Shown here: piece by piece, positions 4,633-53,741 of the stretch
How positions within the stretch are numbered: position 1 is the first letter of the stretch
How the letters are laid out: the number at the start of each line of letters is the position of its first letter
DNA from: Lachnospiraceae bacterium
GTDB taxonomy: Bacteria; Bacillota; Clostridia; Lachnospirales; Lachnospiraceae
Direction: 5' to 3'
DNA: 64,000 nt
NCBI GenBank assembly: GCA_009777715.1
Contig: WRLH01000003.1
Location: forward strand, 80,952 to 144,951
Translations under genes and position numbers: made by a program
The notes under the pieces: generated by a model
Databases searched by the model: none
Told to the model about the DNA's origin: nothing
Seen by the model: only the letters and a program-made list of their open reading frames with translations

Positions 4633-4662
4633 AAGGTGCTGTGACATAAGCCACAGCACCTT
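4633..4662 (-). terminator. Conditional intrinsic terminator, glnN leader
   Basis: An 11-bp perfect stem with an 8-base loop is followed by AUUUU. The U tract is short, so termination may be partial. The 5' arm overlaps the AAAGGU hexaloop hairpin. Confidence 0.6.
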
Positions 4663-4668
4663 TGCTGT
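4633..4668 (-). promoter_or_regulatory. ANTAR-type hexaloop leader of glnN with overlapping terminator
   Basis: In the RNA (minus strand) the first structure is ACAGC-AAAGGU-GCUGU (4668-4653), a 5-bp stem with a six-base loop having A at position 1 and G at position 4, as in known ANTAR targets. An 11-bp stem AAGGUGCUGUG / CACAGCACCUU (4662-4652 with 4643-4633) starts inside that loop and uses its 3' arm, so the two cannot coexist. AUUUU follows. The predicted transcription start is only a few bases upstream, leaving no room for a second hexaloop. The same layout recurs upstream of gdhA and purB. Confidence 0.72.
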
Positions 4669-4678
4669 TCATAATAAT

Positions 4679-4707
4679 AATTTAAGGGATTTTGGGCCCT
4701 TTGTCAA
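4679..4707 (-). promoter_or_regulatory. Sigma-A type promoter of glnN
   Basis: On the minus strand TTGACA (4707-4702) is followed after 17 bases by TAAATT (4684-4679). The start would lie near 4672, a few bases before the hexaloop hairpin. Confidence 0.8.
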
Positions 4708-4745
4708 GTAAAAAATTTAAAATTTTTCAATTAAAATTTTTTTTA

Positions 4746-6110
4746 TCATCTACTTTCTAGCGGCCCATCCGATATAATAATATCTCCGCCCACATCAGTG
4801 CTAAAATGTACATATCCATTAGCATCTATTTTGTAATTGGTCCTTTCAATTCTGATGTACCTGTTCGTTTTGGCTGAATACGAGTAGAAATAGAGATTAC
4901 TTGTATTCATTCTGCTTACGTCAACTTTTGCCGCAATACGCACATCATGGCCAAAATTGCCTTGGTGATCAAGTGATACCATTTTTATATCGTTCTGAAA
5001 AAATTTCTGAAAAGTATTTACTTTTTTCGTTACTTCATCGCCTGATGTCTGGCCGGAAATGGCCAGGGACGGCCCCGCCGAAATGCTGGCCTTTAGAGGG
5101 TCATAAATATTAATCCTTACTTCTACTTCATTTCCTTTTAAGCTATCGCTAATGATTCCCAGGCCTGTCAACCGATTTTCATCGCTTCCATACTCAAGGA
5201 AATGAAGGACATAAGCCGCCATATCATCACCAAAAGCCGCCATTAAATCTGGATTTGCATTTTTATATACTGAGACATCAAATAAATCGCTTCCGGCGCG
5301 TCCTTCCAATAAACCAAATTCCAAGAAATGGTTAAGCAAAGAAAGCTCATCATCTCCAAATTCTTCCGCGACATCCGGATAACGTTCAGCATAGTAGACG
5401 GCATCGAAAACTTCGCTTAAAATGCCGGCGTTAATAGGGGAATTGCCATTGTTAGGATTATCTATATTTTCATTATTATAAAACAAACTTCTTAATACTT
5501 CTAAAGCGTCTTCGGTAAGATAGGCTGGCCCGGTGCTATTAAAAACATACTTTTTATTGCTAGTTTGGCTGGACCAGGATTGAACAATTGCACTCTTCAC
5601 GGTACTGCCATCAATCGCTTTAACAGCTGCGGTAGCTGTAGTAGTAGCAGGGATGTCACTAGTGTTGGCACGAGTGGTGGGGTTGGTACTGGGAAGTGAA
5701 GGTGGCGGTGGCGGCCCGGAAGGCCCATTACCTGGCGATGAACTTGGCTCGGAGCTGGGTGATGAGCTTGGCTCGGAGCTGGGTGATGAGCTGGGCTCGG
5801 AGCTGGGCGATGAACTCGGCTCGGAGCTGGGTGATGAGCTTGGCTCGGAGCTGGGTGATGAGCTTGGCTCGGAGCTGGGCGATGAACTCGGCTCGGAGCT
5901 GGGTGATGAACTCGGCTCGGAGCTGGGTGATGAACTTGGCTCGGAACTGGGTGATGAACTTGGCTCGGAGCTGGGTGATGAACTTGGCGATGAACTTGCC
6001 TCCACGTCACCATCACCTGCCTTAACATCAAAAACATATGTCGGCATTAAAATGACTGTCATTATAATGATAACTATCCATCCGGCAATTTTTGATATAT
6101 TTATTTTCAT
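4746..6110 (-). CDS. Secreted protein with Ser/Pro/Glu repeat linker and two tandem YxxxxPD-type repeats
   Basis: About 454 residues from the ATG at 6110 (AAGGTG just upstream), which removes a spurious 15-residue N-terminal extension. An N-terminal hydrophobic segment (GWIVIIIMTVILMP) with VKA before GDG looks like a signal peptide. About ten copies of SSEPSSSP follow, then a central region with two copies of a motif FDxxxYxxxxPDxxxxFGDDxxxxxxHFLExG. The C-terminal domain contains LYFYSYSAKTNRY and GYVHFSTDVGGDIIIS. Similar domains are common in clostridial surface proteins; function is unknown. It has its own promoter (6228-6256) and stands apart from the nitrogen genes. Confidence 0.8.
   Translation of the reverse strand: MKINISKIAGWIVIIIMTVILMPTYVFDVKAGDGDVEASSSPSSSPSSEPSSSPSSEPSSSPSSEPSSSPSSEPSSSPSSEPSSSPSSEPSSSPSSEPSSSPSSEPSSSPSSEPSSSPSSEPSSSPGNGPSGPPPPPSLPSTNPTTRANTSDIPATTTATAAVKAIDGSTVKSAIVQSWSSQTSNKKYVFNSTGPAYLTEDALEVLRSLFYNNENIDNPNNGNSPINAGILSEVFDAVYYAERYPDVAEEFGDDELSLLNHFLEFGLLEGRAGSDLFDVSVYKNANPDLMAAFGDDMAAYVLHFLEYGSDENRLTGLGIISDSLKGNEVEVRINIYDPLKASISAGPSLAISGQTSGDEVTKKVNTFQKFFQNDIKMVSLDHQGNFGHDVRIAAKVDVSRMNTSNLYFYSYSAKTNRYIRIERTNYKIDANGYVHFSTDVGGDIIISDGPLESR
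5740..5998 (-). repeat. 24-bp minisatellite encoding the SSEPSSSP linker
   Basis: Roughly ten tandem copies of a 24-bp unit (plus-strand form GATGAGCTTGGCTCGGAGCT and variants) encode the repeated octapeptide. Copies differ mainly at synonymous positions. Copy number is likely to vary between strains by slippage. The repeat also creates long shadow frames on the other strand that are not genes. Confidence 0.9.
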
Positions 6111-6227
6111 GTTACACCTTATGCACTCCACAAAGCTAAGCTTGTGAAGCTGCAAAAACCTTTCTTTTTTGGTAGGAAATGGAAATTAAATTTCCGCACT
6201 ATCTTCCCTAATTTTTATATATTCAAT

Positions 6228-6256
6228 ATTATAGCACAATTTGAAATATTTTTGAA
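6228..6256 (-). promoter_or_regulatory. Promoter of the secreted repeat protein
   Basis: Minus strand TTCAAA (6256-6251), 17-bp spacer, then TATAAT (6233-6228) preceded by TGTGC, which gives an extended -10. The 5' leader to the start codon is about 115 bases and AT-rich, with no structure I can support. Confidence 0.7.
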
Positions 6257-7409: not shown

Positions 7410-9095
7410 TCATTTTTTTAGTTCCTCAAAAGCCCCTTGAAATGTGATCCCCGAACTAGTCAATAAAAATGTTTTTTTGCTTTGCCTGATTGGCATTTCC
7501 CGATGTGACACCATGAAAATAATTGAATGCTCTGCCTTTTCCTTTATCACATCAACTATATCCTTTTCTGCCAAGATATCCAAATCCGATGTTATTTCAT
7601 CAAGCAAATATAAGGAAGCATTCCTTAGCAAAGTTCTCACTAAGCAAAGACGTTGTTTTTGACCTGACGACAAGATAACTCCCATATCATCTAATATGCT
7701 GTCATATTCTTCTGGCAAAGACATAATATAGTCATGCAAACCAACTTTTTTACATAGTTTAACAACATCAGAAAAAAAAGCATCCTCATTTCCAATCATT
7801 ATATTTTTTAAGATAGTATCATTTATAAGATAGCTTTGCTTTGACGCATATGAAATTTCATTCCTAAGTGAAGATAACGATATTTTATTGATATCTAATC
7901 CATTAATATAGATATAATTATCAGCACAATCATACATTCTCAATAAAAGTTTTAAAAATGTACTTTTCCCACAACCATTTTCCCCAATAATTGCATATAA
8001 GCCTGGTGAATCTATATGTAATGAAAGATTAGAAAATACATTATCATCATTGTACCCGAATTGCAGGTTTTGAGTTTGAATAGTTTTGATAGTACCAATA
8101 GCAAGTCCGGAAGCCGTATCTTCAACTTGAGCATTATTAAGTGACTCTAATCTCTCAAGGCTTACTTTAATAGTGTTTGATGTCAGGTTCAATGAAAGAA
8201 TCTTAGATGTTGCCTCAAAAAACCTCCCAACATAGGTATTAAAAGAAACCATGTTTCCGATTGATAAGATTCCATTCATAATCCTTATTGCAAATACATA
8301 TATCAAAAAAGGATTAACTATATTATTAATAAATGACTTTAGCAATTGTAAAAAATCATTTACTTTGATGTGTTTTTTGAGCAATGCTCTATTTTCCATT
8401 AAAAACTGGCTAAAAGCATTGCCATATTTATTTTCAATCTGATATGCCTTAATATTTTCAAAATCCTTAAATGTGTAAGTAAGGAAATTAATATATTTGT
8501 CAGAAAATGCGAGCTGGCGTTTCGTAATTATTTTTATTGATGATTGAAACAACTTAATTAATAACAAGGACAAAACAGGTATGCATAATGCGATAAAAGC
8601 ATTCACATATGAGATTTTAAAAATAAAATAAATTGACAAGGCTAGATTGATTCCAATTACAAAAACATTAGTAATTATGTCAATAAAAAATTGAATGACT
8701 GTAACTGTGTCGTTTTCAATTCTATTGATCAATTCCCCCAAAGTATATTTGTTAAACTCCGATTGCTTTAGACTTAGCGACTTAGTGTAGACATTTAGTT
8801 TAATCCGGTTGTTTATTTTGTTTACTAGCAGTTTAGTTGAAATTATCTGGAAAAATCCAAGCGTTGCTGTCACAAGGGAAACAGTAACATATATAATCAA
8901 ATAGCTGTTAAACAATTTTACATCTTTATTGATAATGGCATCAATCAATAACCCATATATATATGGATTAATATTTCCAATTGCAACAGTTAGCACGATT
9001 AATCCTGCTAATAAAACTAATCGTATTTGTTCTAAGCGAAAATATGTCCTGTAAATCTCGATAAAGTATCGCATATAAATTTTCTCAAACCTCAC
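7410..9095 (-). CDS. ABC exporter, fused transmembrane and ATPase domains
   Basis: 561 residues: an N-terminal membrane domain with about six hydrophobic helices (residues about 20-300), then an ATPase domain with Walker A GENGCGKST, signature LSSGQ and Walker B LYLLDEITSDLD, and H-loop SHRE. It is a half-transporter expected to act as a homodimer exporting a peptide or lipid. No N-terminal C39 leader peptidase is present, so leader removal needs another enzyme. Its start overlaps the FtsX-like permease stop by four bases (ATGA), showing it belongs to the RiPP operon; it probably exports the modified peptide. Confidence 0.85.
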   Translation of the reverse strand: MRFEKIYMRYFIEIYRTYFRLEQIRLVLLAGLIVLTVAIGNINPYIYGLLIDAIINKDVKLFNSYLIIYVTVSLVTATLGFFQIISTKLLVNKINNRIKLNVYTKSLSLKQSEFNKYTLGELINRIENDTVTVIQFFIDIITNVFVIGINLALSIYFIFKISYVNAFIALCIPVLSLLLIKLFQSSIKIITKRQLAFSDKYINFLTYTFKDFENIKAYQIENKYGNAFSQFLMENRALLKKHIKVNDFLQLLKSFINNIVNPFLIYVFAIRIMNGILSIGNMVSFNTYVGRFFEATSKILSLNLTSNTIKVSLERLESLNNAQVEDTASGLAIGTIKTIQTQNLQFGYNDDNVFSNLSLHIDSPGLYAIIGENGCGKSTFLKLLLRMYDCADNYIYINGLDINKISLSSLRNEISYASKQSYLINDTILKNIMIGNEDAFFSDVVKLCKKVGLHDYIMSLPEEYDSILDDMGVILSSGQKQRLCLVRTLLRNASLYLLDEITSDLDILAEKDIVDVIKEKAEHSIIFMVSHREMPIRQSKKTFLLTSSGITFQGAFEELKK

Positions 9096-11449
9096 ATCGG
9101 TGCTTTGTAGGAAATAAGTGCCTTAAAATCGACCAGCTTCATTACGGCGATTAGGATCAGATAAGTAATGGCTGCCAATACTGAAAGCGTAATCCCAAGG
9201 GCTAATAATGACGGAAGATAAGCTATGCGCATTAGTAATAAGAAGAACAAATTAATCACGGCAAGGCAAAGCAAAAAGGCGGCAATGCTGCTAATTAAAA
9301 TAATGATGCCGTATTGCAGATAAATAATTCTCCTGACCTTTTTCTCTTTTGCCCCCAAAGCACGGTAAAGGGATAATTCAGGACTCCGCTTTATTAAAGT
9401 GCTTGCCATCAGCGAGGCAAGGAAAATCAGCAGGGCAATTATTATAATTGATGAGGCCATGTAGATAATTGAAATATATTGCGCCATCCCGGTAGTCAGA
9501 ATCTGCGTCAGGATATTGGCAGTCATTATTTCCGCTTGCCAGCTTCTTAGTATTTGCCCCAGCAATTCTATTTCATTTTCATTAAGGAAAAACAAATAAT
9601 TATTCCGGAATGTCTCGTCAATGGCACTCCCCATGTCTTGATGGGAAGCCAAAATCGTATGCGAAGCGGGCGTAAACGGGGTGGGGGTCAAATAATCTGC
9701 CAAGGTAAGGTTCTTATCGCTTCCCTCTAGCAGATATGGGTCGCCGATATTAAGCCCTATCGCGCCAGTCACAATCCTGTCAGCCAAGAAAGTTCCCGGC
9801 AAAACCTTCAAAGTCGGTGAATAATTATTCTCGTCTTTTAAAATGCCAAGGAAATATCTTCTTTCGCTGTTGTGGTAGGTGGCAATTTTTGTGTATATTT
9901 GAAAATACGGAAGTCCATGCTCCTTTAGCAAATCTTCAAACCGCTCCTCGTCACGCGGCATTACATTTACGCAAACATTATATCCGACCCCTGCAATCCA
10001 AGCGTTTTCAACCATTTTTGCAATGCCGAAAGATAAATTATAAATAAACATAATAAAAACGGCAACTATGACAAACGCGGTTGAAATAATCGCGGAATTT
10101 CTCAAATTGCCCCTCAGCAGCTTCACCGAAAGCATAAGGCTGTTAGTTAAAGTTTTATCCGCAAACCGGAATAAGTTAATCGCTTTCTTGCTGATGAAAT
10201 ATATGAATGCAACTAATGCCATCAGCCCCAGCGTAAAAAGCAAAAGCGAGAAATCATTTGAAAAAGCCGCCATGATAATTGCAAAAACGATAATGCTAAT
10301 AATCGGATATTGGAGTGATTTGTCTGCTTTATGATGGATTCGGCCATTGATAATATTCATTGCGTCAATGTCAAAAATCTTTTTCGCCAGTAAAAAACTT
10401 AACGGCAGATTAATCATTATCGAAATTGCAAGGACAACTAAAAATACTAAAACCATTTGCCAAAAGGTAACTAAAAGTGAAGCACCAAAGGCTTGTCTTG
10501 TCACATATTTGAACATCAAGAGGGCAAGAGGGGCGGCAATCAAATTGGCAGACAGCGAAAATGCCAATGCGTCAATGAAAGATATTTTGATTGCGCTTTT
10601 TCTTGTGAACCCATAAACCCTTAGGAGGGCAAAGTTCTTGATATTCTTCGAAAAATTGAGATAAGCAAAAGTAAAAAAACCCGCGGTAAAGACAATAAAG
10701 CAAAGAACGACAAGATATGCAATAACTTCTTTGATGACTTCTTTAACAAGCTGGTAGTTTTTTTGTATTTCGCTGTAATGCTGTCTGGTTATCTTTATAT
10801 TGTTGTCACCAAAATATAAATCCAAGGCTTCACTAATATCAGCTTCTTCATCGTAAGCCAGACGGATATTTGCCTTTTCAATTGCGCCTAGAATTTGCTC
10901 TATATACAATTCATTAATGGTAACATAACCATAATACTGGGATTCGAGAGTGCCAAAATCCGGATTTTCAATGGAATTAACCGAAAAAGCCAAATCCCAG
11001 TCATCAAAAGATAATGTGGAATCTTTTTTTGCCCGCAAGCTTTCACTTAAAGTGCTGCTCATGATACAAGCATTTAAGGGGATTCCGCTTTGAAAGCGCA
11101 GAAGAACAGGCCGCCTTTCGCCATTAAGGGACAGGTTTACGGTTGCATATCTTTCCACTAGTTTAGCGTTTAACTTAAGCTCATCAAAATGCTTTTCAAA
11201 ATGCTCATCCATTATTAAGCCGTTTTCTTCGTTATGCTCAAGATAATATGAAACAATTCCGCCATTGGCATTTATTGAAGCATTTTCAAAAATTAAATCG
11301 TTGCTTGAAGTCAGCAAAAGCATTAGCGCAATTATTGAAGCAAGCAAAACATAAACAACCCATACCATTAAGGATATGGATTTATTTGTGTTGCTTACCT
11401 TATAAAAAACGGCAAATTGCTTAAAAGCTCTATCCACTAAGCTCACCAT
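9092..11449 (-). CDS. FtsX/MacB-type ABC transporter permease
   Basis: 785 residues. It has one transmembrane helix near the N-terminus, a large extracytoplasmic domain (about 60-220), a block of membrane helices, a second extracytoplasmic region and a C-terminal cluster of helices (YISIIYMASSIIIIALLIFL). This two-module layout is that of FtsX-like permeases used for peptide resistance, lipoprotein handling or bacteriocin immunity and export. It overlaps the preceding ATPase gene by 20 bases, so the two proteins are very likely partners. In this context self-immunity or export of the Cys-repeat peptide is the likeliest role. Confidence 0.82.
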   Translation of the reverse strand: MVSLVDRAFKQFAVFYKVSNTNKSISLMVWVVYVLLASIIALMLLLTSSNDLIFENASINANGGIVSYYLEHNEENGLIMDEHFEKHFDELKLNAKLVERYATVNLSLNGERRPVLLRFQSGIPLNACIMSSTLSESLRAKKDSTLSFDDWDLAFSVNSIENPDFGTLESQYYGYVTINELYIEQILGAIEKANIRLAYDEEADISEALDLYFGDNNIKITRQHYSEIQKNYQLVKEVIKEVIAYLVVLCFIVFTAGFFTFAYLNFSKNIKNFALLRVYGFTRKSAIKISFIDALAFSLSANLIAAPLALLMFKYVTRQAFGASLLVTFWQMVLVFLVVLAISIMINLPLSFLLAKKIFDIDAMNIINGRIHHKADKSLQYPIISIIVFAIIMAAFSNDFSLLLFTLGLMALVAFIYFISKKAINLFRFADKTLTNSLMLSVKLLRGNLRNSAIISTAFVIVAVFIMFIYNLSFGIAKMVENAWIAGVGYNVCVNVMPRDEERFEDLLKEHGLPYFQIYTKIATYHNSERRYFLGILKDENNYSPTLKVLPGTFLADRIVTGAIGLNIGDPYLLEGSDKNLTLADYLTPTPFTPASHTILASHQDMGSAIDETFRNNYLFFLNENEIELLGQILRSWQAEIMTANILTQILTTGMAQYISIIYMASSIIIIALLIFLASLMASTLIKRSPELSLYRALGAKEKKVRRIIYLQYGIIILISSIAAFLLCLAVINLFFLLLMRIAYLPSLLALGITLSVLAAITYLILIAVMKLVDFKALISYKAPM

Positions 11450-12083
11450 CTTTCATCTGGATAATTCTGTCGCACAAATCCGCAACAGTTTTGTCGTGGG
11501 TTACAATCAAAACTGTTTTCTTCTGTAAAGCCGTTTTGCGGAACATTGCCATTATTTCAAGGCCAGTTTTTTGGTCGAGTGACCCGGTCGGCTCATCAGC
11601 AAGGATTATGTCCGGCCCAGTTATGAGTGCCCTTGCTATCGCTGCCCTTTGCTGCTCACCGCCTGACATTTCATTCGGATAGCGGTTAAGGAGTTCCTTT
11701 AAGCCAAGCTGTTCATATAGTGACTTGGAAATTAAGTTTTGGCTTGAACCAGAAAAAATAAGCGGAAGCATGATATTATCCTTGCAATTAAGCTCTTTTA
11801 TCAAGCCATAATTTTGAAAAACTATGCTAATGTGGCGGGCGCGAAATGAATCCAATTTGTCAGACGGCATTTCATACATTTTCTTGCCGTTAAGCGAAAC
11901 AGAACCGGAATCCGGCTTGTCAAGCCCGGCTATTATGCCAAGCAATGTGCTTTTACCGCAGCCGCTGGGGCCCATAATCGCAACCATCTCACCTTGATTT
12001 ACAGAAAAACTAATCCCTTTTAGAATATGGGTGGTTGCTGATTTGGTTTTTATGGATTTTTTGATGGAATTTACTTTAAGCAC
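11430..12083 (-). CDS. ABC transporter ATP-binding protein, MacB/LolD type
   Basis: 217 residues with a full set of motifs: Walker A GPSGCGKST, signature MSGGEQQRAAIARAL, Walker B IILADEPTGSLD and H-loop VTHD. The size and MSGGEQQR form are those of LolD/MacB-like ATPases that pair with FtsX-like permeases, encoded directly downstream with an overlap. It begins 37 bases after the small CXXX-system protein and is part of the same operon. Confidence 0.88.
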   Translation of the reverse strand: MLKVNSIKKSIKTKSATTHILKGISFSVNQGEMVAIMGPSGCGKSTLLGIIAGLDKPDSGSVSLNGKKMYEMPSDKLDSFRARHISIVFQNYGLIKELNCKDNIMLPLIFSGSSQNLISKSLYEQLGLKELLNRYPNEMSGGEQQRAAIARALITGPDIILADEPTGSLDQKTGLEIMAMFRKTALQKKTVLIVTHDKTVADLCDRIIQMKDGELSG

Positions 12084-12120
12084 GTTTTTGCTCCTGTTTT
12101 ATATATCACTTGCTGAAATT

Positions 12121-12429
12121 TTATCCGCGCCGTAATATAAGTTCATCATTGCCATAATTAATATATAATTGCATATTGTCAGTAATAATTATATCATATT
12201 TTTCAACACAATAATCCCAGAACTTGCGAATATCCCTTAGGCATTTTTTATTATCCTGAACCAATCGTTTATATATTTCGCTTTCATGCTTTTTATATAA
12301 ATCATTATCAGTTAAAGATTTACATAAATCTTGGATAGCGAAATTTAGGTATTGCAAATCTTGTATTTTTTCAATTTCTTCCTCTGATAAAACTGCTATG
12401 CGTTCTTCTATAAAATTATCTTTTGACAT
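12121..12429 (-). CDS. Small accessory protein of the Cys-repeat peptide locus (CXXX-repeat system-associated type)
   Basis: 102 residues from the ATG at 12429, chosen because GGAGG lies seven bases upstream; six extra upstream codons lack a ribosome site. The protein is charged and mostly helical (LSEEEIEKIQDLQYLNFAIQ) with no catalytic motif I recognise. From memory it resembles the small proteins annotated as 'CXXX repeat peptide modification system protein' that accompany such maturases. That assignment rests mainly on context between the maturase and the ABC genes. It may help recognise the precursor. Confidence 0.55.
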   Translation of the reverse strand: MSKDNFIEERIAVLSEEEIEKIQDLQYLNFAIQDLCKSLTDNDLYKKHESEIYKRLVQDNKKCLRDIRKFWDYCVEKYDIIITDNMQLYINYGNDELILRRG

Positions 12430-12446
12430 TTTTATCCTCCTGCTCA

Positions 12447-14627: not shown

Positions 14628-14666
14628 CTTTTTCACCTTTCTGATTTGGGAAACACAATAAATACA

Positions 14667-21099: not shown

Positions 21100-21134
21100 A
21101 TTTTTACCTCCATTATTTTTTCCTCATGCGCAAA

Positions 21135-34553: not shown

Positions 34554-34557
34554 AGCT

Positions 34558-37166: not shown

Positions 37167-37199
37167 TATCCATGCTCCTTTTCAAAGCCTGAAATTCTA

Positions 37200-42538: not shown

Positions 42539-43029
42539 TAGTCCATTAACTCCTTTTTTCCGGTTAAAATAACTTCATCATTTTCGCCGCGTCCCCATTC
42601 GGTTAGAAAGCTGTTCCCGCCCATCGTGACTTTTACTTTTGTTATGCAAGTTTTATTAAGCATGATGGCGACTGTCCCGGCAACTGCCGCGGCTTCGTTT
42701 GTATATGCGGTTTCGCCTTCGCCGTGTTGCCAGAGCCTTGTTTCTAAGCTTTCTTCGTCTTGTTTTTTGGCAAAAATTATGCTTGCCCCTTTAGGGAAAA
42801 TGGCATTCGTCCCCAGCAAAGCACCAATTTTCTTTACATCAACGCTTTTTAAGTCATCAACAAACAAAACACCGTGCGGCCTGCCAAGTGAAATAACCGT
42901 GACTTTAAGGATTTCGCCGTCAATTAAGAGCGGGTTATTGATACACATTGGCGAGCCATTATATAAAACCGGAATCAGGTACGGAGCGGTAATCGGTTTG
43001 CCAAATGAAACAGAAATATTGTTATTCAT
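42538..43029 (-). CDS. Stand-alone DapF C-terminal-domain-like protein lacking the catalytic Cys
   Basis: 163 residues from the ATG at 43029 (GGAGG just upstream). The sequence follows the second half of diaminopimelate epimerase: LGRPHGVLFVDDLKSVDVKKIG, FPKGASIIFAK, RLWQHGEGET, MGGNSFLTEWG (stretches quoted in part). Where active DapF has GETLACGTGA this protein has GETAYTNEAAA, so that Cys is absent. The N-terminal half with the other Cys is missing too. It is short, in frame and tightly coupled to gdhA and argG, so it is probably a real gene with a non-epimerase role. Confidence 0.65.
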   Translation of the reverse strand: MNNNISVSFGKPITAPYLIPVLYNGSPMCINNPLLIDGEILKVTVISLGRPHGVLFVDDLKSVDVKKIGALLGTNAIFPKGASIIFAKKQDEESLETRLWQHGEGETAYTNEAAAVAGTVAIMLNKTCITKVKVTMGGNSFLTEWGRGENDEVILTGKKELMD

Positions 43030-43042
43030 ACTAACCTCCCAA

Positions 43043-44399: not shown

Positions 44400-44450
44400 A
44401 AAAAAGGCACTCACCGGCAACTGAAAAATCAATTGCCGATAAACACCTTT
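44400..44450 (-). terminator. Conditional intrinsic terminator, gdhA leader
   Basis: 22-bp stem with UUUU loop; the 3' arm ends in GUGCCUUU and runs into UUUC, giving six U in total. It would stop transcription before gdhA unless the hexaloop hairpin forms. Confidence 0.75.
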
Positions 44451-44458
44451 GTTTATCG
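44403..44458 (-). promoter_or_regulatory. ANTAR-type hexaloop leader of gdhA with overlapping terminator
   Basis: The RNA starts with CGAUAAAC-AAAGGU-GUUUAUCG (44458-44437), an 8-bp stem with the hexaloop AAAGGU. A second fold pairs 44450-44429 with 44424-44403, 22 consecutive pairs (several G-U) around a UUUU loop, and is followed by U residues. Its 5' arm begins with the loop bases themselves, so the hexaloop hairpin and the terminator exclude each other. The predicted start site is at the base of the hexaloop hairpin. This is the best of the three leaders. Confidence 0.78.
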
Positions 44459-44463
44459 TGCCT

Positions 44464-44493
44464 AGTTTAGCATAAACCGACCTAGGCTGTCAA
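44464..44493 (-). promoter_or_regulatory. Promoter of gdhA and the long nitrogen operon
   Basis: TTGACA (44493-44488), 18-bp spacer, TAAACT (44469-44464) on the minus strand. The start is expected near 44457. Confidence 0.8.
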
Positions 44494-45964: not shown

Positions 45965-46534
45965 CTAATTCTCATAAGTTTTAATGATTCCCTCGGCGAC
46001 CTCTCTTCTGCTTTGCCGTGAATCCATCGCTTCTTTTTCGATATAGCGGTGGGCTTCTTTTTCGGTCATGTTCATATAGGAAATTAGGATTAGCTTGGCA
46101 CGGTCAATAACCCGGATATCCTCAATTTTTTGTTTTAATTTTGCGTTTTCAGCTTTTACCTTTGTCAGCCTGCTTTGGGCTGAACGCGCTAGTGTAAGCG
46201 CCGACCAAAAAATGGTTTTGTTGATTGGCTTGGCAATCGTGAGTACCCCATCGTCCTCGCAAACTGCGGAAACAGCTTCATAAAATTCCGTTTTTACCAC
46301 TAAGATAACTTGCGACGCACCTTTTGCCGCAATAAAGCGGGCCAGCATTTCCCCTGTTTCATCTTTTAGCGGCGCATTAATTAAAACGAGGTCAAAATCC
46401 CGCTCTAAAAGAAGCCGCCTTGCATCGCCACAAGAATGGATATCAACAATATGGCCAATTGAAGCAGACTTTAGTATTTCTGCAAAAAAAGCAATGTATT
46501 TTTCGTTGCTTGAAACTATCAAAGCACTATCCAT
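45965..46534 (-). CDS. ANTAR-domain antitermination regulator with degenerate receiver
   Basis: 189 residues from the ATG at 46534. Residues about 1-120 have a receiver-like fold, but the acidic pair is replaced (IVSSNEK) and Asn53 stands at the phosphoacceptor site (LVLINAPL). A coiled segment (KVKAENAKLKQKIEDI) leads to an ANTAR domain: VIDRAKLILISYMNMTEKEA then HRYIEKEAMDSRQSRREVAE. ANTAR proteins bind hexaloop RNA hairpins and prevent termination. It overlaps glnA and is the last gene of the purB transcript, whose leader has such a hairpin. Without a phosphorylation site, control is probably by ligand or protein, possibly glutamine synthetase. Confidence 0.88.
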   Translation of the reverse strand: MDSALIVSSNEKYIAFFAEILKSASIGHIVDIHSCGDARRLLLERDFDLVLINAPLKDETGEMLARFIAAKGASQVILVVKTEFYEAVSAVCEDDGVLTIAKPINKTIFWSALTLARSAQSRLTKVKAENAKLKQKIEDIRVIDRAKLILISYMNMTEKEAHRYIEKEAMDSRQSRREVAEGIIKTYEN

Positions 46535-47795
46535 TATCGCCAACTTCCAGTTTCTTTAGGTTGATATATTTATAAAGCAGCTCTTCATTAAGGGTTTGTT
46601 TGACAAAGTCGCTATTGGCGGCTAGGTTTAACGCTAAACCTAGGCTATCCGGCAAGGATTCAAGCTCTTTTGTCACATCGATGCCAGCGGTATATAAATC
46701 TGCGTCAACCGGGGCTTTCAGCTTCATTTCAGCTTCAATTCCATCAAGCCCGGCCGCGATAATCAAAGCAAAAGCAAGATAAGGATTAAGCGATGGGTCA
46801 GGTGAACGCAGTTCCATTCTGACTTTATTGCCTTTTGCCGCCGGAATCCGGATCAGCTGTGAACGGTTTTGGTGTGACCATGATATATATCTTGGGGCAT
46901 CAAATTCGCCAAACCGCTCATATGAGCTTTTAAGCGGATTTAAAAAGGCGGTCATTTCGGATATCCGCTCAAGAATCCCAGCGATAAAACTTTCCGCAAC
47001 CTTAGAATGGCCGTCATTTTTGTTTTTAAAGATATTAACCCCGTTTTGCATGAGCGAAATATTAACGTGCATCCCGCTCCCCGGAGCACCGGGCAGAGGT
47101 TTTGGCAAGAATGAAGCATAAAGGCCGTTCCTGGCCGCAATCGCCCGGACAACTGAACGGAATGTCTGGAGATTGTCCGCACTTGTCACGGCATCGCTAA
47201 ATTCAAAATCAACTTCGTTTTGGCCCGGCCCTTGCTCATGATGTGAGGTTTCGGGCTTAACATTCATTTCTTCAAGGGTCAAGCAGATCTCCCGGCGGAT
47301 ATCTTCGCCCAAATCAAGCGGATAAATATCTAAATATCCGCCTTTGTCAAAAGGAATCTCCGTTTGTTCACCGTTTTCATCGGTTTTAAACAAATAAAAC
47401 TCGCATTCTGCGCCGATTTTGACGAAATATCCTAGTTTTTCTGCCCGCTTAACTACTTGTTTTAATAAAATCCTGCCATCATGCAAAAATAATGAGCCGT
47501 CAGGGTTTTTTATCTCGCAGTAAAAACGCGCAACCCGGCCCGGCCCTGGCCGCCACGGCAAAATCGCTAATGTCGCAGGGTCGGGGAATAAAAATAAATC
47601 CGAGCGGGTGACATCACGAAAACCAAGGATTGAATGGGCATCAAAGGATATTCCTATTTCAAAAGCCGATTCAAGCTGATCCGCCATAATCGAAATATTT
47701 TTTTGCGTCCCCAAAATGTCACAAAAGGTAAGCCTTATAAATTTTATGTCATTTTCTTTGATAAATTCGATAACTTCAATTGCCGTGCTATCCAT
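46527..47795 (-). CDS. glnA: Glutamine synthetase type I
   Basis: 422 residues. FIRLTFCDILGTQKN, AECEFYLF, SHHEQGPGQNEVDFEF, GSGMHVNISL and NRSQLIRIPA mark the GSI family; the length suggests the shorter alpha type without an adenylylation loop. It makes glutamine from glutamate and ammonia. It lies 11 bases after glmS and overlaps the ANTAR gene, an arrangement that suggests the regulator may sense this enzyme or its product. A GSIII is encoded at 2.5 kb. Confidence 0.95.
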   Translation of the reverse strand: MDSTAIEVIEFIKENDIKFIRLTFCDILGTQKNISIMADQLESAFEIGISFDAHSILGFRDVTRSDLFLFPDPATLAILPWRPGPGRVARFYCEIKNPDGSLFLHDGRILLKQVVKRAEKLGYFVKIGAECEFYLFKTDENGEQTEIPFDKGGYLDIYPLDLGEDIRREICLTLEEMNVKPETSHHEQGPGQNEVDFEFSDAVTSADNLQTFRSVVRAIAARNGLYASFLPKPLPGAPGSGMHVNISLMQNGVNIFKNKNDGHSKVAESFIAGILERISEMTAFLNPLKSSYERFGEFDAPRYISWSHQNRSQLIRIPAAKGNKVRMELRSPDPSLNPYLAFALIIAAGLDGIEAEMKLKAPVDADLYTAGIDVTKELESLPDSLGLALNLAANSDFVKQTLNEELLYKYINLKKLEVGDNG

Positions 47796-47806
47796 ATTTT
47801 TCTCCT

Positions 47807-49618
47807 TTATTCTACGGTCACGCTTTTGGCCAGATTCCGCGGTTTATCAATATCAAGGCCTTTGTTGGCGGCTACGTAATAGCTGAAAAGCTGCAAAATA
47901 ATCACGGAAAGTGACGGCGAAAACAGTTCATTGCCTTCCGGAAGCTTGATAAACTTAAGCCGCTTGTCAGCTTGTGTTTCTTCTTGGCTGCTGATTAAAA
48001 GGACATTGGCTTTCCTGCTTACTACCTGCTCAATATTGCTCATGCTTTTTAGGTATAATCTTTCACAATTCGCCAGCGCGACCACCAAAGTATTTTCTTC
48101 AAGCAGGGAAATTGTGCCATGTTTTAATTCCCCGCCCGCATATGCTTCTGAATGGATATATGATATTTCCTTAAGCTTTAGTGAACCTTCCAAAGCAATG
48201 GCATAATCGATATTGCGGCCGATAAAAAAGATGCTTTTGTAGCCAACGCAAACCGAGGCATATTTCTGGATATCATCAACGTGCAAAAAAATGCTGGCTA
48301 TTTTTTCCGGCAAGGCTTCAATTTCCATCAGTAACTCATTTTGATCGGCATTTGCCAGTTTGCCCATTTTGGAAGCAAAACGGATTGCCAAAAGATAAAG
48401 CAAAATTAGCTGGGTGGAAAAAGCTTTTGTCGTTGCAACCGCAATTTCCGGCCCGGCCTGGGTATAAATGCAAAAATCCGCTTCCTTTGCCAGCGTGCTG
48501 CCAACAACATTCACAATGGCCAGCGTACTGGCCCCTTTCGATTTCGCTTCCCGCATTGCGGCAATTGTATCGGCTGTTTCGCCGGATTGGCTTATCAAAA
48601 TAACAAAGGTTTTATCGTCAATTACGGCATCCTTATAGCGAAATTCGCTGGCAAGCTCAACCTCAATTGATGAAAAACGGCATAAGCGTTCAAAAACATA
48701 TTTCGCCACAACTCCGGCATTATAAGCAGAACCGCAAGCAGTTATGACAATTTTATCATAAGCAATGATATTTATTTCATCAATGATTGCTTTGTTTGCT
48801 CCGTTAACCGCTGAATTAATCGTATCGCGGACTACCTTGGGCTGCTCCATGATTTCTTTGAGCATAAAATGCGGATAACCGCCCTTTTCGGCACTATCGG
48901 CACTCCAAGTGATGGTTTCGGGCATTTTGGAAATTGGCTCTTTGTCAATGCTAAAAAAAGCAACACTATCCTTTTTAAGGACGGTAATTTCTTTGTCCTC
49001 AAGATAATAAATCTGGTTCGTATGTTTTAAAACGGCCGGGACATCAGAAGCAATGAAGTTTCCGTTTGCGGCAATTCCGATAATCAAAGGATTGTCTTTT
49101 TTGATGGCAATTAAGACATCCGGGTCGTCTAGGCTCATGATTCCAAGGGCATAAGAACCCTCAAGGGCATTGGAAACGCGGATCACCGTCTCAAGCAAAT
49201 CACCGCGATAATAATACTCGGCCAGCTGGGCAACTACCTCGCTGTCAGTTTGCGAAGCAAACTTTGCCCCTTTTTGCTCCAAACGTTCTTTCAGCTGTTT
49301 GTAATTTTCAATAATGCCATTGTGGACAACGGCTATTTTGCTTTTGCTCCCAACATGGGGATGGGAATTGATGTCCGAGGGTTCACCGTGAGTGGCCCAC
49401 CGGGTATGGCCGATTCCCATTGTCGCCGACCTTGGGTTTTCCTTAAGCTTTTGATCAAGTGCCGCCAAACGGCCCTTTTGCTTTACGATATCAAAGCCGT
49501 CTTTTCCATAAATCGCTATTCCGGCTGAATCATATCCTCTGTATTCAAGCTTTTTAAGCCCCTCAACAATAATTGGGACCGCGTTTTCACTGCCAATATA
49601 ACCGATTATTCCGCACAT
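47807..49618 (-). CDS. glmS: Glucosamine-6-phosphate synthase
   Basis: 603 residues from the ATG at 49618, which places the catalytic Cys at position 2 (MCGIIGYIGSENAVP); longer upstream in-frame starts would bury it. LEYRGYDSAG, GHTRWATHGEP and two sugar isomerase domains (ISQSGETADT, KELSYIH-like region, C-terminal LAKSVTVE) follow. It makes glucosamine-6-phosphate from fructose-6-phosphate and glutamine. I see no glmS ribozyme core in the 90-base upstream gap, which holds two small palindromes. Confidence 0.95.
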   Translation of the reverse strand: MCGIIGYIGSENAVPIIVEGLKKLEYRGYDSAGIAIYGKDGFDIVKQKGRLAALDQKLKENPRSATMGIGHTRWATHGEPSDINSHPHVGSKSKIAVVHNGIIENYKQLKERLEQKGAKFASQTDSEVVAQLAEYYYRGDLLETVIRVSNALEGSYALGIMSLDDPDVLIAIKKDNPLIIGIAANGNFIASDVPAVLKHTNQIYYLEDKEITVLKKDSVAFFSIDKEPISKMPETITWSADSAEKGGYPHFMLKEIMEQPKVVRDTINSAVNGANKAIIDEINIIAYDKIVITACGSAYNAGVVAKYVFERLCRFSSIEVELASEFRYKDAVIDDKTFVILISQSGETADTIAAMREAKSKGASTLAIVNVVGSTLAKEADFCIYTQAGPEIAVATTKAFSTQLILLYLLAIRFASKMGKLANADQNELLMEIEALPEKIASIFLHVDDIQKYASVCVGYKSIFFIGRNIDYAIALEGSLKLKEISYIHSEAYAGGELKHGTISLLEENTLVVALANCERLYLKSMSNIEQVVSRKANVLLISSQEETQADKRLKFIKLPEGNELFSPSLSVIILQLFSYYVAANKGLDIDKPRNLAKSVTVE

Positions 49619-49668
49619 AATAATCACCATGCCTTTATTTTGGGCCGTTAGGCACAATATTTGCAAAC

Positions 49669-49707
49669 CGAATCATAGATTCGTTTTCGAAAGATTTATC
49701 TTTCGAA
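49669..49707. repeat. Two adjacent palindromes upstream of glmS
   Basis: CGAATC-ATA-GATTCG (49669-49683) and a 22-bp perfect palindrome TTCGAAAGAT..ATCTTTCGAA (49686-49707) fill the gap between the aminotransferase and glmS genes. The first resembles the CGAATCATGATTCG palindrome upstream of the XRE gene at 63.7 kb. No U tract follows. Confidence 0.6.
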
Positions 49708-49708
49708 T

Positions 49709-50881
49709 TTACCCCTCTTTTTTTAGGGTATTGATAAATGCTTGGATTCGTGATAATGCTTCCCTGATATTTTCAAGCGAATATGCGTAGCAAATACGGA
49801 CAAAACCTTCGCCGCATTCGCCAAAGGCAGGCCCTGGCACAATCGCTAAACGCTGTTCCTTAAGCAGCCTTATGCAAAACTCCTCGGAGCTAAGGCCAAA
49901 GCTTTTAATCGAGGGGAATAAATAAAATGCCCCGCGTGATTCAAAGCAATCAATGCCCATTTTCCAAAATTCATCAAGCATGAAGCGGCGGCGGAGATCA
50001 TATTCGGCTTTCATTTCCTTAACCTCCTCATCGCAACTCCTTAAAGCGCAAATCCCAGCGTGTTGGGCGTTAGTTGGCGCGCACATAATGACATATTGAT
50101 GAATTTTTATCATTTCGGCTATGATTTCCTCCGGCCCGCAAGCATAACCAAGCCGCCAGCCTGTCATCGCAAAAGCTTTTGAAAAGCCATTAAGTAAGAT
50201 TGTTCTTTCATACATTCCGGGCAAGGAAGCAATGCTAACATGGGCTTCGTCGCCGTAAGTAAGCTCAGCATATATTTCATCGCTGATAACCAGTATTTCA
50301 TGCTTCCTTAATAAGTCAGCAACTGCTTCAATGTCTTTCCGCTCCATGATTGCCCCGGTCGGGTTGCTAGGATAACTAATCAGGATGGCTTTGGTTTTTT
50401 CCGTAATCCGCATTTCGATGTCCTCCGGTTTGACCCGGAAGTTGTTTTCGGCACTGGTTGGGATTGTCACCGGGACTCCGCCAGCCATCAAAACACAAGG
50501 CCGGTATGAGACATAACAAGGCTCAACAACTAACACCTCATCACCCGGATTTAAAATCGCCCGTAAGGCAACATCTATGCCCTCGCTTGCGCCAACCGTA
50601 ATCAAAATCTGCTGGTTCGGGTCATAATTTACGTCATATTTTCGTGATAAATACCTGCTGATTTCGTTGCGTAATTCTAAAAGGCCAACATTTGAGGTGT
50701 ATTTTGTCCCTTGGCTTTCAAGCGTTCTGACCGCCTCTTCCCTAATGCTAAGGGGAGTCGCAAAATCCGGCTCGCCAACACTTAAGGAAATAATATCTTT
50801 CATTTCCGCAGCTATGTCAAAAAATTTACGGATTCCGGAATAGGGTAAATCGCGGATATTTTGGGCAATAAATGATTTCAT
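49709..50881 (-). CDS. Class I aminotransferase, aspartate aminotransferase type
   Basis: 390 residues. IISLSVGEPDFATP, SYPSNPTGAIM and the PLP lysine motif NGFSKAFAMTGWRLGYACG place it in the fold-type I AspC/PatA group. Substrate cannot be fixed from sequence, but its position behind purB and purA, both in the aspartate branch of AMP synthesis, makes interconversion of glutamate and aspartate the likely role. AGAAAGG lies upstream with a long spacer; purA ends 17 bases earlier. Confidence 0.85.
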   Translation of the reverse strand: MKSFIAQNIRDLPYSGIRKFFDIAAEMKDIISLSVGEPDFATPLSIREEAVRTLESQGTKYTSNVGLLELRNEISRYLSRKYDVNYDPNQQILITVGASEGIDVALRAILNPGDEVLVVEPCYVSYRPCVLMAGGVPVTIPTSAENNFRVKPEDIEMRITEKTKAILISYPSNPTGAIMERKDIEAVADLLRKHEILVISDEIYAELTYGDEAHVSIASLPGMYERTILLNGFSKAFAMTGWRLGYACGPEEIIAEMIKIHQYVIMCAPTNAQHAGICALRSCDEEVKEMKAEYDLRRRFMLDEFWKMGIDCFESRGAFYLFPSIKSFGLSSEEFCIRLLKEQRLAIVPGPAFGECGEGFVRICYAYSLENIREALSRIQAFINTLKKEG

Positions 50882-50898
50882 TAATATACCAGCCTTTC

Positions 50899-52173
50899 TT
50901 AGGACATTTCTATATAATCTTCCCTTCCCGCCCCGACTGACACATATTTGATGGGGCAGCCAACCGCTTTTTCAATAAACCGGATATAGCTTAACGCGCT
51001 GCTTGGCAGCTCTTCTGCTTTACGGCATTTCGAGATATCAGTTTTGAAACCATCCACATATTCATAAATGGGCTTTGCCCGGTAAAGCTTATCTCCGATG
51101 ACAAAATGGTCTTTTATGATACCGTCAATCTCATAAGCGACACAAACGGGAATCTTATCAAGATATGATAACACATCAAGCTTGGTTAATGCAAGTTCAT
51201 CAGCTCCTTGGATTTTTACCCCATATTTGCTTGCCGGAATGTCAAATGCGCCAACCCGTCTCGCCCGGCCTGTGGCTGCGCCAAATTCTGCCCCGGCTTC
51301 GCGTAAAAGCTTTGCTTCCTGGCCAGACGCTTCCACCGTAAACGGCCCTTCGCCGACACAGCTTGAGTAAGCTTTCATTACCCCAATTGTCCGGTCGGTT
51401 TTTAATCCGGGGATTCCTGCCCCGATTGTCGCATAAGCAGCCAAGGTCTGGGACGAGGTCGTAAATGGATAAATGCCGTAGTCAATATCCCTAAGCGCCC
51501 CTAGCTGTGCTTCAAAAAGGATATTTTGCCCTTTATCAGCCGCCTCATACAAATAATCAGTCGTATTGCTGATAAAAGGAAAAAGCGGAGTGCCATACTG
51601 ATGAAGCCATGCCATTGTTTCCTCTAAGTCAACCATGTTCTTTTTGCCAAACTTAGCCAGGGTAAAATTCTTCCATTCAATAAAATCTGAAAGCTTGGTT
51701 CTTAGGCTTAAAAAATCGGCTAAATCACTAATCCTGATTCCTTTTTTCATATATTTGTCGCCGTAAACAGGGGCAATTCCGCGTTTTGTCGAGCCGTACT
51801 TTTTATCGCCGAGGCGTTTTTCTTCAAGCCCATCTTGGCTTTTGTGGCAGGGCAAGCAGATAAAAGCGTTTTCGCTGATTTTTAAGTTATCAGGGGTGAT
51901 TTTAATGCCTTTCTCTTTTAAGGTATTGATTTCACCATTTAAGTGTTCAAGGTCAATTACCATTCCGCCCCCCATGACGTTTGTTATTTTGTCCCGTAGA
52001 ATGCCTGACGGAAGCAGGTTTAAAATGAACTTACCCTTGTCATTGATAACGGTATGCCCGGCGTTATTTCCGCCTTGATATCGGCAAATCACATCATATC
52101 TTTCTGAAAGCAGGTCAACCATCCTGCCTTTTCCCTCATCACCCCAATTTATTCCGGCAATTACTGTCAGCAT
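50899..52173 (-). CDS. purA: Adenylosuccinate synthase
   Basis: 424 residues. The N-terminal GINWGDEGKGRMVDLLS and GGNNAGHTV, and later GAATGRARRVGAFD, are family signatures. It adds aspartate to IMP with GTP, giving adenylosuccinate for PurB. It lies 10 bases after purB; TAGGAGG precedes the start. Confidence 0.95.
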   Translation of the reverse strand: MLTVIAGINWGDEGKGRMVDLLSERYDVICRYQGGNNAGHTVINDKGKFILNLLPSGILRDKITNVMGGGMVIDLEHLNGEINTLKEKGIKITPDNLKISENAFICLPCHKSQDGLEEKRLGDKKYGSTKRGIAPVYGDKYMKKGIRISDLADFLSLRTKLSDFIEWKNFTLAKFGKKNMVDLEETMAWLHQYGTPLFPFISNTTDYLYEAADKGQNILFEAQLGALRDIDYGIYPFTTSSQTLAAYATIGAGIPGLKTDRTIGVMKAYSSCVGEGPFTVEASGQEAKLLREAGAEFGAATGRARRVGAFDIPASKYGVKIQGADELALTKLDVLSYLDKIPVCVAYEIDGIIKDHFVIGDKLYRAKPIYEYVDGFKTDISKCRKAEELPSSALSYIRFIEKAVGCPIKYVSVGAGREDYIEMS

Positions 52174-52183
52174 TTTTTTCCTC

Positions 52184-53611
52184 CTAAACTTTTATTTTTA
52201 TGTCAATGCCCAATTGGTCTTGGTAAGCTAAAAGAATCAGCTTGATTTCCAGAAGAAATTCCTCGGTCTGCTCCTTTGCCCGCCCGGTAAACAAATCAGC
52301 AACCAGCAGCCGCTTTAATTCCTCGCTAGTCAAACAAAAAGCCTCGTCATTTAAGATCCGGTCAATCAAATCATTTTCTTTGCCTAATTCTTTAATCCTC
52401 AAGGCTGCGTCTAGCGAATGGACGCGAATCCGCTCATGTAATAATTGCCTGTCACCGCCCTTATTTACGCAGTGCATCAAAATATTTTCGGTGGCAATGA
52501 ATGGAAGCTCTTCATCTAAATGCTTTTTAATCATTTTGGGGTAAACCTTAAGGCCGCTGATGACATTGATATAAAGGGACAGAATCGCGTCAACGCCAAG
52601 GAAAGCCTCCGGAATCGATATCCGCCGATTCGCCGAATCATCAAGCGTCCGCTCAAACCACTGCGAGCTTGCGGTAAAAGCAGGATTGATGGCGCCGATT
52701 ATCACATACCTTGCCAAGGAAGCAATCCGTTCACTCCGCATGGGATTCCGCTTATATGCCATTGCCGATGAACCAACCTGATTGTTTTCAAAAGGCTCAT
52801 CAACTTCTTTTAAGTGTGACAAAAGGCGGATATCATTGGAAAATTTGGCCGCGCTTTGGGCAATGCCCGATAGGACGGACAAAATATAATAATCAATTTT
52901 CCGTGAATAGGTCTGGCTGCTTAGGGGATATGTTTCATCAAAGCCAAGCTTTGCCGCAATTTTTTCTTCCAGTTGCTTTACTTTGTGATGGTCGTTATCA
53001 AATAAGGCCAGAAAGCTTGCTTGCGTCCCGGTTGTGCCTTTACAGCCAAGCAGCTTTAAATTGTTGCAAGCAAATTCAAGCTGATTAAGATCAAACAATA
53101 AATCTTGCAGCCATAACGCGGCCCTTTTCCCCAGCGTTGACGGCTGTGCTGGCTGAAAATGGGTATATGAAAGGCAAGGCAGGGCTTTATGCTCTGCGGC
53201 AAAATCGGCCAGCTTAGCAATAAGATTAACCAGCATTTTTTTAATCAGGTTTAACGCTAAACGTTGCAAAATAATGTCGGTATTGTCGCCGACATAACAA
53301 GAAGTTGCCCCCAGATGGATAATCGGCTTTGCTTTTGGGCATTGCTCGCAATAAGCGTAAATATGCGCCATTACGTCATGCCTTAGCTCGGCTTCATATC
53401 TTGCGGCCGCCTCATAATTTATGGCGTCAGCATTTTCTTTCATTTCGTCAATTTGCTCCTGCTTGATGTTAAGCCCAAGTTCCATCTGGCTTTCAGCAAG
53501 GGCAATCCAGAGCTTGCGCCATGTCGAAAATTTGCTGTCATCAGAGAAAATAGCTTGCATTTCATGACTTGCGTATCTTTTACATAAAGGGTTTTCGTAA
53601 CTGTCCTGCAT
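52184..53611 (-). CDS. purB: Adenylosuccinate lyase
   Basis: About 475 residues from the ATG at 53611 or the adjacent one at 53614; two further in-frame upstream codons are less likely. The signature GSSAMAYKRNPMRSERIASL is intact, with HLGATSCYVGDNTD upstream. It cleaves SAICAR and adenylosuccinate, releasing fumarate. It is the first gene of the purB-purA-aminotransferase-glmS-glnA-ANTAR transcript and is preceded by a hexaloop/terminator leader. Confidence 0.94.
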   Translation of the reverse strand: MQDSYENPLCKRYASHEMQAIFSDDSKFSTWRKLWIALAESQMELGLNIKQEQIDEMKENADAINYEAAARYEAELRHDVMAHIYAYCEQCPKAKPIIHLGATSCYVGDNTDIILQRLALNLIKKMLVNLIAKLADFAAEHKALPCLSYTHFQPAQPSTLGKRAALWLQDLLFDLNQLEFACNNLKLLGCKGTTGTQASFLALFDNDHHKVKQLEEKIAAKLGFDETYPLSSQTYSRKIDYYILSVLSGIAQSAAKFSNDIRLLSHLKEVDEPFENNQVGSSAMAYKRNPMRSERIASLARYVIIGAINPAFTASSQWFERTLDDSANRRISIPEAFLGVDAILSLYINVISGLKVYPKMIKKHLDEELPFIATENILMHCVNKGGDRQLLHERIRVHSLDAALRIKELGKENDLIDRILNDEAFCLTSEELKRLLVADLFTGRAKEQTEEFLLEIKLILLAYQDQLGIDIKIKV

Positions 53612-53640
53612 CATAATAACCATGACCTTTCCATAATAAA

Positions 53641-53700
53641 AAAAATAAAAACAAAGACATTCATTGATATGCAAAATACATATCCACGAACGCCTTTGTT
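53641..53700 (-). terminator. Conditional intrinsic terminator, purB leader
   Basis: A 15-bp outer stem plus a 6-7 bp inner stem, followed by UUUUAUUUUU-type sequence. It is mutually exclusive with the AAAGGC hexaloop hairpin. Confidence 0.75.
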
Positions 53701-53703
53701 CAC
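53650..53703 (-). promoter_or_regulatory. ANTAR-type hexaloop leader of purB with overlapping terminator
   Basis: GUGAAC-AAAGGC-GUUCGU (53703-53686) is a 6-bp stem with hexaloop AAAGGC (A1, G4). The alternative fold pairs AACAAAGGCGUUCGU (53700-53686) with AUGAAUGUCUUUGUU (53664-53650) and is topped by a second helix GAUAUG/CAUAUC. It is followed by a long U-rich run. The two folds share the loop and 3' arm. The regulator that should bind it is encoded at the end of this same transcript, implying autoregulation. Confidence 0.77.
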
Positions 53704-53712
53704 TCTTTCTTT

Positions 53713-53741
53713 ATTTTATAATTAAAATCCTTGGTTGTCAA
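53713..53741 (-). promoter_or_regulatory. Promoter of the purB operon
   Basis: TTGACA (53741-53736), 17-bp spacer, TAAAAT (53718-53713) on the minus strand. The start is expected near 53706, directly before the hexaloop hairpin. Confidence 0.8.

Follow-up and report, generated by a model that had tools for sequence, protein, structure and literature searches.

This analysis concerns a set of short RNA leaders encoded in a 64-kb piece of one contig (the window; WRLH01000003.1, positions 80,952 to 144,951) from the 3.1-Mb draft genome of a Lachnospiraceae bacterium, where they precede glnN, gdhA and the purB operon. The leaders are probably ANTAR antitermination switches, mostly with a single hexaloop, that serve glutamine-centred genes; we infer that binding of an ANTAR protein would permit transcriptional read-through. 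Judged from sequence, they form a real and recurrent RNA switch family found in many Clostridia and in Treponema, for which this mechanism is likely. The less expected feature is that a leader usually has one hexaloop, located at the predicted transcription start, without the upstream recruitment hexaloop needed by EutV.

The original prediction placed three leaders on the minus strand of the window, each with a promoter, a hairpin and a terminator that starts from within the hairpin loop, and all were confirmed where it had put them. All three contain a sigma-70-like promoter and a hairpin with an A1/G4 hexaloop:

4633–4707, minus strand: glnN leader, with -35 box TTGACA (4707–4702), 17-nucleotide (nt) spacer and -10 box TAAATT (4684–4679)
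4668–4653, minus strand: hairpin of the glnN leader, with loop AAAGGU (4663–4658) and terminator at 4662–4633
44403–44493, minus strand: gdhA leader, with -35 box TTGACA (44493–44488), 18-nt spacer and -10 box TAAACT (44469–44464)
44458–44437, minus strand: hairpin of the gdhA leader, with loop AAAGGU (44450–44445) and terminator at 44450–44403
53653–53741, minus strand: purB leader, with -35 box TTGACA (53741–53736), 17-nt spacer and -10 box TAAAAT (53718–53713)
53703–53686, minus strand: hairpin of the purB leader, with loop AAAGGC (53697–53692) and terminator at 53697–53653

Hairpin and terminator are mutually exclusive in each leader, as the terminator takes the loop and the 3' arm of the hairpin. 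The terminator is the favoured fold of the leaders alone (glnN -25.5, gdhA -28.2 and purB -31.8 kcal/mol), with z-scores of -5.4, -5.8 and -9.6, respectively, and none of 200 shuffles of each leader folded as well. The short hairpins alone were predicted at -7.2 (glnN), -9.6 (gdhA) and -3.1 kcal/mol (purB, z-score -1.0). No Rfam model matched the window at gathering cut-offs, and the leaders fit no curated riboswitch or leader model. A scan of the window for any hairpin with an A..G.. hexaloop and an overlapping terminator found 10 places in 64 kb, with scores of 13 for glnN, 23 for gdhA and 19 for purB and of 4–7 for the other seven, one of which, at 27408 on the plus strand (score 4), shares the loop AAAGGC. 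First-order Markov shuffles of the window (n = 20) contained 0–7 A..G.. places each and no element with AAAGGY.

A fair chance test of the family must make no stem requirement, and the one used here asked only for a promoter and the motif CAAAG[AG] at a set distance from it, demanding neither stem nor terminator; it was applied to the window, to other loci of the same genome and to loci that for the most part surround relatives of the ANTAR gene. The motif occurred at 96 places, and a stem of at least 4 pairs was present at 45 of these, a terminator at 44 and both at 41, as against none with both stem and terminator among the 398 places found with nine altered loop motifs. Covariation among 45 leaders (double changes at five of six pairs, with a score that none of 500 shuffles attained) was not counted as support, because the scan that collected these leaders had demanded a stem of 4. 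The covariance model built from these 45 leaders, R1, includes the promoter and hairpin and is blind to the terminator. Its class-wide matches provided 29 fetched loci besides the genome of the window, none of which has a 30-mer in common with any training leader, and a terminator overlapped the match in 23 of the 29 by a strict rule and in 25 by a looser one, the latter compared with 3 of 1008 background stretches. Around R1 matches at E<=0.1 in near relatives, 60 regions were fetched, of which 38 contained the element.

The genome-wide covariance search suggested in the original prediction revealed a fourth leader, on another contig (G000:C1:180151-180210; L115), which precedes amt. E-values below 0.01 in this search belong to the three window leaders, which helped to build R1, so that these values are not independent; the amt leader is the next-best match, with an E-value of 0.404. 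It consists of TTGACA, TAACAT, a hairpin AGC-AAAGAC-GCU, a terminator and a second module with the loop AACGGA, in that order, followed by a gene identified as an ammonium transporter (TIGR00836, 401 bits versus a cut-off of 343.3). The element scan missed this leader because its stem has 3 pairs. Of the weak matches in this genome (E>=0.4) that had a locus to inspect, 26 of 27 show no element at the match; four further weak matches had no such locus.

Including the three in the window, 132 leaders were collected, the rest being in relatives. This set covers the window and loci L003–L111 and L171–L230 with identical copies dropped, leaves out L001, L002 and L112–L170 as duplicates or bare matches, and applies cut-offs of at least 8 for the terminator score and at least 8 for the promoter score inside an imposed range. 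The target gene was taken as the longest open reading frame (ORF) starting within 450 nt of the leader, and four of the 132 leaders had no ORF of 50 amino acids. Names were assigned to 28 clusters through one representative each, with the amidotransferase cluster named by its 76% identity to window positions 36063–37166. The genes behind 114 of the remaining 128 leaders, a count that does not include the amt leader of this genome, concern glutamine, glutamate, ammonium, asparagine, carbamoyl phosphate, purines or pyrimidines, although collecting loci by R1 or by proximity to ANTAR genes biases these shares toward the ANTAR neighbourhood. The targets were glnA (26), type III glutamine synthetase (GSIII; 20), the amidotransferase of a split gltB (11), pyrG (9), amt (8), carA (8), asnB (8), gltB (7), purF (5), gdhA (3), gltD (3), carB (2), purC (2), purA (1) and purB (1); of the other 14, three were dapF, two were an oxidoreductase identified by reading, and nine were further genes.

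The predicted glutamine and nucleotide scope is borne out by relatives that have their own leaders before glnA, GSIII, gltB, gdhA, amt, pyrG, carA, carB, purF, purA, purC and asnB. Its breadth beyond nitrate and ethanolamine systems, pointed out in the original prediction, is not new in itself, because wider ANTAR nitrogen regulons have already been described, including one of Desulfotomaculum acetoxidans with 13 elements spread over six units (Ramesh, 2012) and the NitR system (PMC6316151). In the Treponema loci L083, L087, L090 and L092, the loop AAAGAG is found before gltB and dapF, and AAAGAC or AAAGGC before carA; a sub-specificity in which loop sequence tracks gene class is possible in these loci.

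The candidate regulator is encoded in the window itself, where the predicted ANTAR gene was found to close the purB run next to glnA:

45965–46543, minus strand: ANTAR gene, overlapping glnA by 17 bp; last gene of the purB-purA-aminotransferase-glmS-glnA run

Its ANTAR domain scored 61.5 bits against PF03861 (curated cut-off 27.3), and this is the only ANTAR match in the whole genome. Among 61 genomes, this one and its relatives, 42 contain ANTAR genes and 39 of the 42 have one each. Loci were compared through 96 ANTAR proteins, obtained by tblastn (E<=1e-8) from the 110 loci comprising L003–L111 and the window, and glnA was within 2.5 kb of the ANTAR gene in 94 of these 96. We take an ANTAR gene adjoining glnA to be the mark of a NitR-type antiterminator. 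In the mechanism proposed, transcription would start just upstream of the hairpin, at the predicted start, and the ANTAR protein whose gene follows glnA would attach as a dimer to the single A1/G4 hexaloop hairpin. With the hairpin bound, the overlapping terminator would not form, and polymerase would continue into genes for making or using glutamine. The ANTAR gene may also be autoregulated, because it sits in the purB operon.

The canonical ANTAR target has two hexaloops, and losing either cripples EutV induction (Ramesh, 2012). An ANTAR dimer engages just one hexaloop at any one time; single sites have been proposed where timing is not limiting (Walshe, 2022; PMC8934654). The leaders resemble the eutP RNA recognized by EutV in their A1/G4 hexaloop, in a stem that overlaps an intrinsic terminator and in their nitrogen-related genes. 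They differ from it in that nearly all have one hexaloop rather than two, the hairpin lies at the predicted transcript start and the 5' arm of the terminator begins in the loop. The description of this loop as the known recognition feature of ANTAR proteins was therefore half right: the A1/G4 hexaloop is present, but the canonical target has two and the window leaders one. NasR and AmiR likewise function in ANTAR antitermination, and the alignment places a His at the G4-stacking position of AmiR as well, whereas each of these proteins serves one locus through dual hexaloops (Ramesh, 2012). NitR of Clostridium saccharobutylicum, an ANTAR protein reported to antiterminate glutamine synthetase/glutamate synthase (GS/GOGAT) genes when nitrogen is limiting (review PMC6316151), is likewise a nitrogen antiterminator; it was compared by its published description. 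No single-hexaloop antiterminator at a transcript start appeared among titles and abstract openings of open-licence PMC articles; subscription journals were outside this scope, and absence in print is unproven.

Since the ANTAR targets studied to date have two hexaloops, the leaders might be ordinary dual-hexaloop leaders whose true start lies upstream of the predicted one and whose first hexaloop (P1) was missed. The gdhA leader has a nominal upstream hexaloop, and the amt leader has two. This explanation appears quite improbable. The nominal gdhA hexaloop is formed from the -35 box, and a terminator that has a T run of its own separates the two amt loops, unlike a P1-P2 pair. An upstream second hexaloop was nominally present in seven of the 132 leaders and was fittingly placed in none, as six lie inside the predicted promoter and one (L055) lies at the end of a coding region, as placed by reading; in 20 further loci, the count was one in 42 leaders. 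The detector recovered all four real dual hexaloops that served as its positive control, at loci of canonical ANTAR proteins (L265, L270, L271 and L276). There, the loops are 39 nt apart before glnA in loci of the Tyr/Phe type described below, and promoter-like boxes precede the first hairpin. A free search for promoter boxes over 75 nt gave scores of at least 9 of 12 for 74 of 95 leaders, compared with 25 of 95 shuffled sequences, and in 70 of the 74 the -10 box ends 8–19 nt before the loop, which would make the hairpin the first structure to be transcribed. Placement of the hairpin relies on this free search, and not on the median of 8 nt between -10 box and stem in 112 leaders, which was measured within the imposed range. 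A canonical dual hexaloop was accordingly rejected for the three window leaders, in which, given their predicted transcript starts, no P1 was found. Some loci display other arrangements. Tandem complete hairpin-terminator modules, ~60–80 nt apart, occur in L061, L065, L287, L290 and L302, and in L055 (10570), L057 (10595), L059 (3953) and L060 (9088) a hexaloop-terminator element immediately follows the ANTAR gene and lacks a good promoter, as though it lay within the operon.

Who reads the hairpin, and in which sense, has also been considered. Among 243 class genomes, a leader was found at E<=0.01 in 72 of 130 that have an ANTAR gene and in 14 of 113 others, and of the 99 top-listed leader matches, 90 are in ANTAR genomes; for 39 of the 90, the ANTAR gene is no more than 10 kb away. 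This co-occurrence supports the predicted ANTAR-type antitermination and one regulator for the three window leaders. The 14 genomes with a leader and without a detected ANTAR gene could instead mean that another protein or a small RNA reads the hairpin, ANTAR being linked to it only through a shared role in glutamine metabolism, but this is very improbable given that the loop obeys the ANTAR rule (A1, G4), that altered loops give no complete elements and that leaders and ANTAR genes co-occur and lie close together. Furthermore, the four strong leader genomes among the 14 (G097, G273, G241 and G093) have relatives of the same genus or family that carry ANTAR genes, which makes gaps in the drafts plausible, if unproven, as the cause of these exceptions. 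It is unlikely, though less so, that the sense is opposite, with the ANTAR protein binding under nitrogen plenty, or that it acts on mRNA stability or translation rather than on termination. Glutamine-spending genes (pyrG, carA, purF and asnB) beside glutamine-making ones fit plenty as well as shortage; however, the hairpin and the strong terminator exclude each other in sequence, and nitrogen limitation is the condition under which NitR reportedly antiterminates (review PMC6316151).

Several results weigh against ANTAR antitermination by a single hexaloop. The Fisher test of leader versus ANTAR gene, at 9e-13, ignores kinship. The 14 of 113 genomes, with the four strong ones among them, still lack a detected ANTAR gene, and no convincing one emerged in the ten of the 14 that were searched. 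Conversely, 58 of the 130 ANTAR genomes have no leader at E<=0.01. EutV antitermination needs both hexaloops, though each binds alone by surface plasmon resonance (Ramesh, 2012; Walshe, 2022, PMC8934654). Two hexaloops, each followed by its own terminator, stand 49 nt apart in the amt leader, and therefore "single" is not true of every member of the family. The purB hairpin is weak at -3.1 kcal/mol, and the first amt hairpin is weaker still at -1.1 kcal/mol. No element was found by the scan in 22 of the 60 R1 regions fetched from near relatives, and 20 of the 132 leaders have no promoter score of at least 9. Finally, Asp is present at the phospho-acceptor position in 47 of the 96 ANTAR proteins, and some relatives may thus be phosphorylated. 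Separately, no leader was found at the Ruminococcus albus loci around ANTAR genes (L051 and L074).

The ANTAR proteins themselves keep three of the four residues that contact the hexaloop in EutV. In EutV, Lys149, Glu160 and Met172 hold the loop and Tyr164 stacks on G4 (PMC8934654), and by spacing and alignment the first three contacts are kept in 96 of 96 proteins. The Tyr164 position is His in 94 of 96, including His165 of the window protein. His also occupies this position in all 20 leader-bearing class loci, and Tyr or Phe in all 20 leader-less ones, the latter a biased pick by top domain score. His165 as the mark of all single-hexaloop systems was ruled out by seven Tyr/Phe-type loci with one hexaloop; at most, His goes with the promoter-proximal layout, because these seven also show a single hexaloop. 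The loci concerned (L266–L269 and L272–L274) are glnA-linked, have their hexaloop before glnA but farther from any promoter-like site (~45–90 nt past it where this could be read by eye), and may represent the NitR layout. At an eighth such locus, L275, the hexaloop is behind the ANTAR gene.

The closest named relatives of the window ANTAR protein come from Bacillota, in records that carry the labels Defluviitaleaceae, Peptococcaceae, Eubacteriales and Clostridiales. In the ANTAR tree, the 20 Tyr/Phe leader-less proteins and L015 are separated from the window protein by a branch supported 96/96, while five Treponema proteins nest among Bacillota near the window clade and three from Chitinispirillia/Chitinivibrionia lie alongside. 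Because of these positions among or beside Bacillota, transfer between phyla is likely, and the ANTAR-glnA pairs to which this applies are L041, L043, L044, L045, L046, L047, L049 and L110.

In the window protein, Asn replaces the phospho-Asp of a receiver-like domain, which is followed by the ANTAR domain. Because the phospho-acceptor Asp is missing, the signal is probably not phosphorylation here. Across the 96 proteins, Asn occurs at this position in 38, and a complete receiver phosphorylation site was found in three of the 96 (window and relatives) and in none of the 20 class loci. A signal that arrives through a protein partner is more likely than one that arrives by phosphorylation. By analogy with Bacillus TnrA, our preferred candidate for the partner is glutamine synthetase I itself, a guess held with less than even confidence. 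A wider proposal is offered tentatively, with confidence a little short of even: one-hexaloop ANTAR antiterminators would act at the first nucleotides of the mRNA, where the 5' end replaces the recruitment hairpin, and a His-type, mostly non-phosphorylated protein wired to glutamine synthetase I would run a global glutamine regulon, covering the making, using and importing of nitrogen as well as purines and pyrimidines, across Clostridia, Treponema and Chitinispirillia.

How many genes the three window leaders might control depends on the gene runs behind them:

426–2306, minus strand: asnB-like asparagine synthase, behind glnN across a 186-bp gap
2492–4576, minus strand: glnN, GSIII, with GSIII_N and Gln-synt_C domain matches
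17440–31944, minus strand: guaA, pyrG, dapL, purC, purF, carA, carB and purL, preceded by a 255-bp gap
32200–38375, minus strand: malic-enzyme-like gene and apparently split glutamate synthase, preceded by a 195-bp gap
36063–37166, 34558–36063 and 32200–32847, minus strand: class-II amidotransferase, GltB core and GXGXG piece, respectively, of the split glutamate synthase
38571–43113, minus strand: short dapF-like ORF, argG, argH and two fumarase subunits, closely spaced downstream of gdhA
43043–44374, minus strand: gdhA, NADP-specific glutamate dehydrogenase, from ATG 44374
46527–53623, minus strand: purB, purA, aminotransferase, glmS and glnA (type I glutamine synthetase) operon

The start codons of gdhA and purB are probably ATG 44374 and ATG 53623, which make both genes shorter than the listed ORFs. 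The region 32200–37166, which also includes ferredoxin-like and FAD reductase-like pieces, looks like a glutamate synthase in separate pieces, several of whose matches fall below the curated full-length cut-off. The asnB-like gene may share the glnN transcript across its gap, and the genes from the dapF-like ORF to the fumarase subunits are predicted to be co-transcribed with gdhA. Read-through from gdhA into the guaA-to-purL run is possible but unproven, and pyrG, purC, purF, carA and carB of the window, which have no leader of their own, would need it to extend over both the 195-bp and the 255-bp gaps. A promoter and terminator scan of these two gaps saw no terminator-like site in either; the 255-bp gap contains two weak promoter-like sites, no more than expected by chance. 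The earlier figure of about 25 controlled genes is thus an upper limit, as it would require read-through over all of the 186-, 195- and 255-bp gaps. Elsewhere in the window, a radical SAM/SPASM protein lies beside an ABC exporter and an FtsX-type permease (7410–14636), possibly a modified-peptide cluster, and a GHMP kinase is fused to a nucleotidyl transferase in a single ORF (61416–63425).

The existence of more than 100 natural one-hexaloop leaders at the predicted mRNA start would allow a direct test of the two-hexaloop model of EutV. Either one hexaloop suffices when the hairpin is the first structure to leave the polymerase, or these ANTAR proteins work differently, in which case His in place of Tyr164 would provide a concrete handle. 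The switch would also supply large groups of anaerobes with a glutamine-centred global regulator, in which glnA, gltB, amt, pyrG, carAB, purF and asnB are placed under one type of control.

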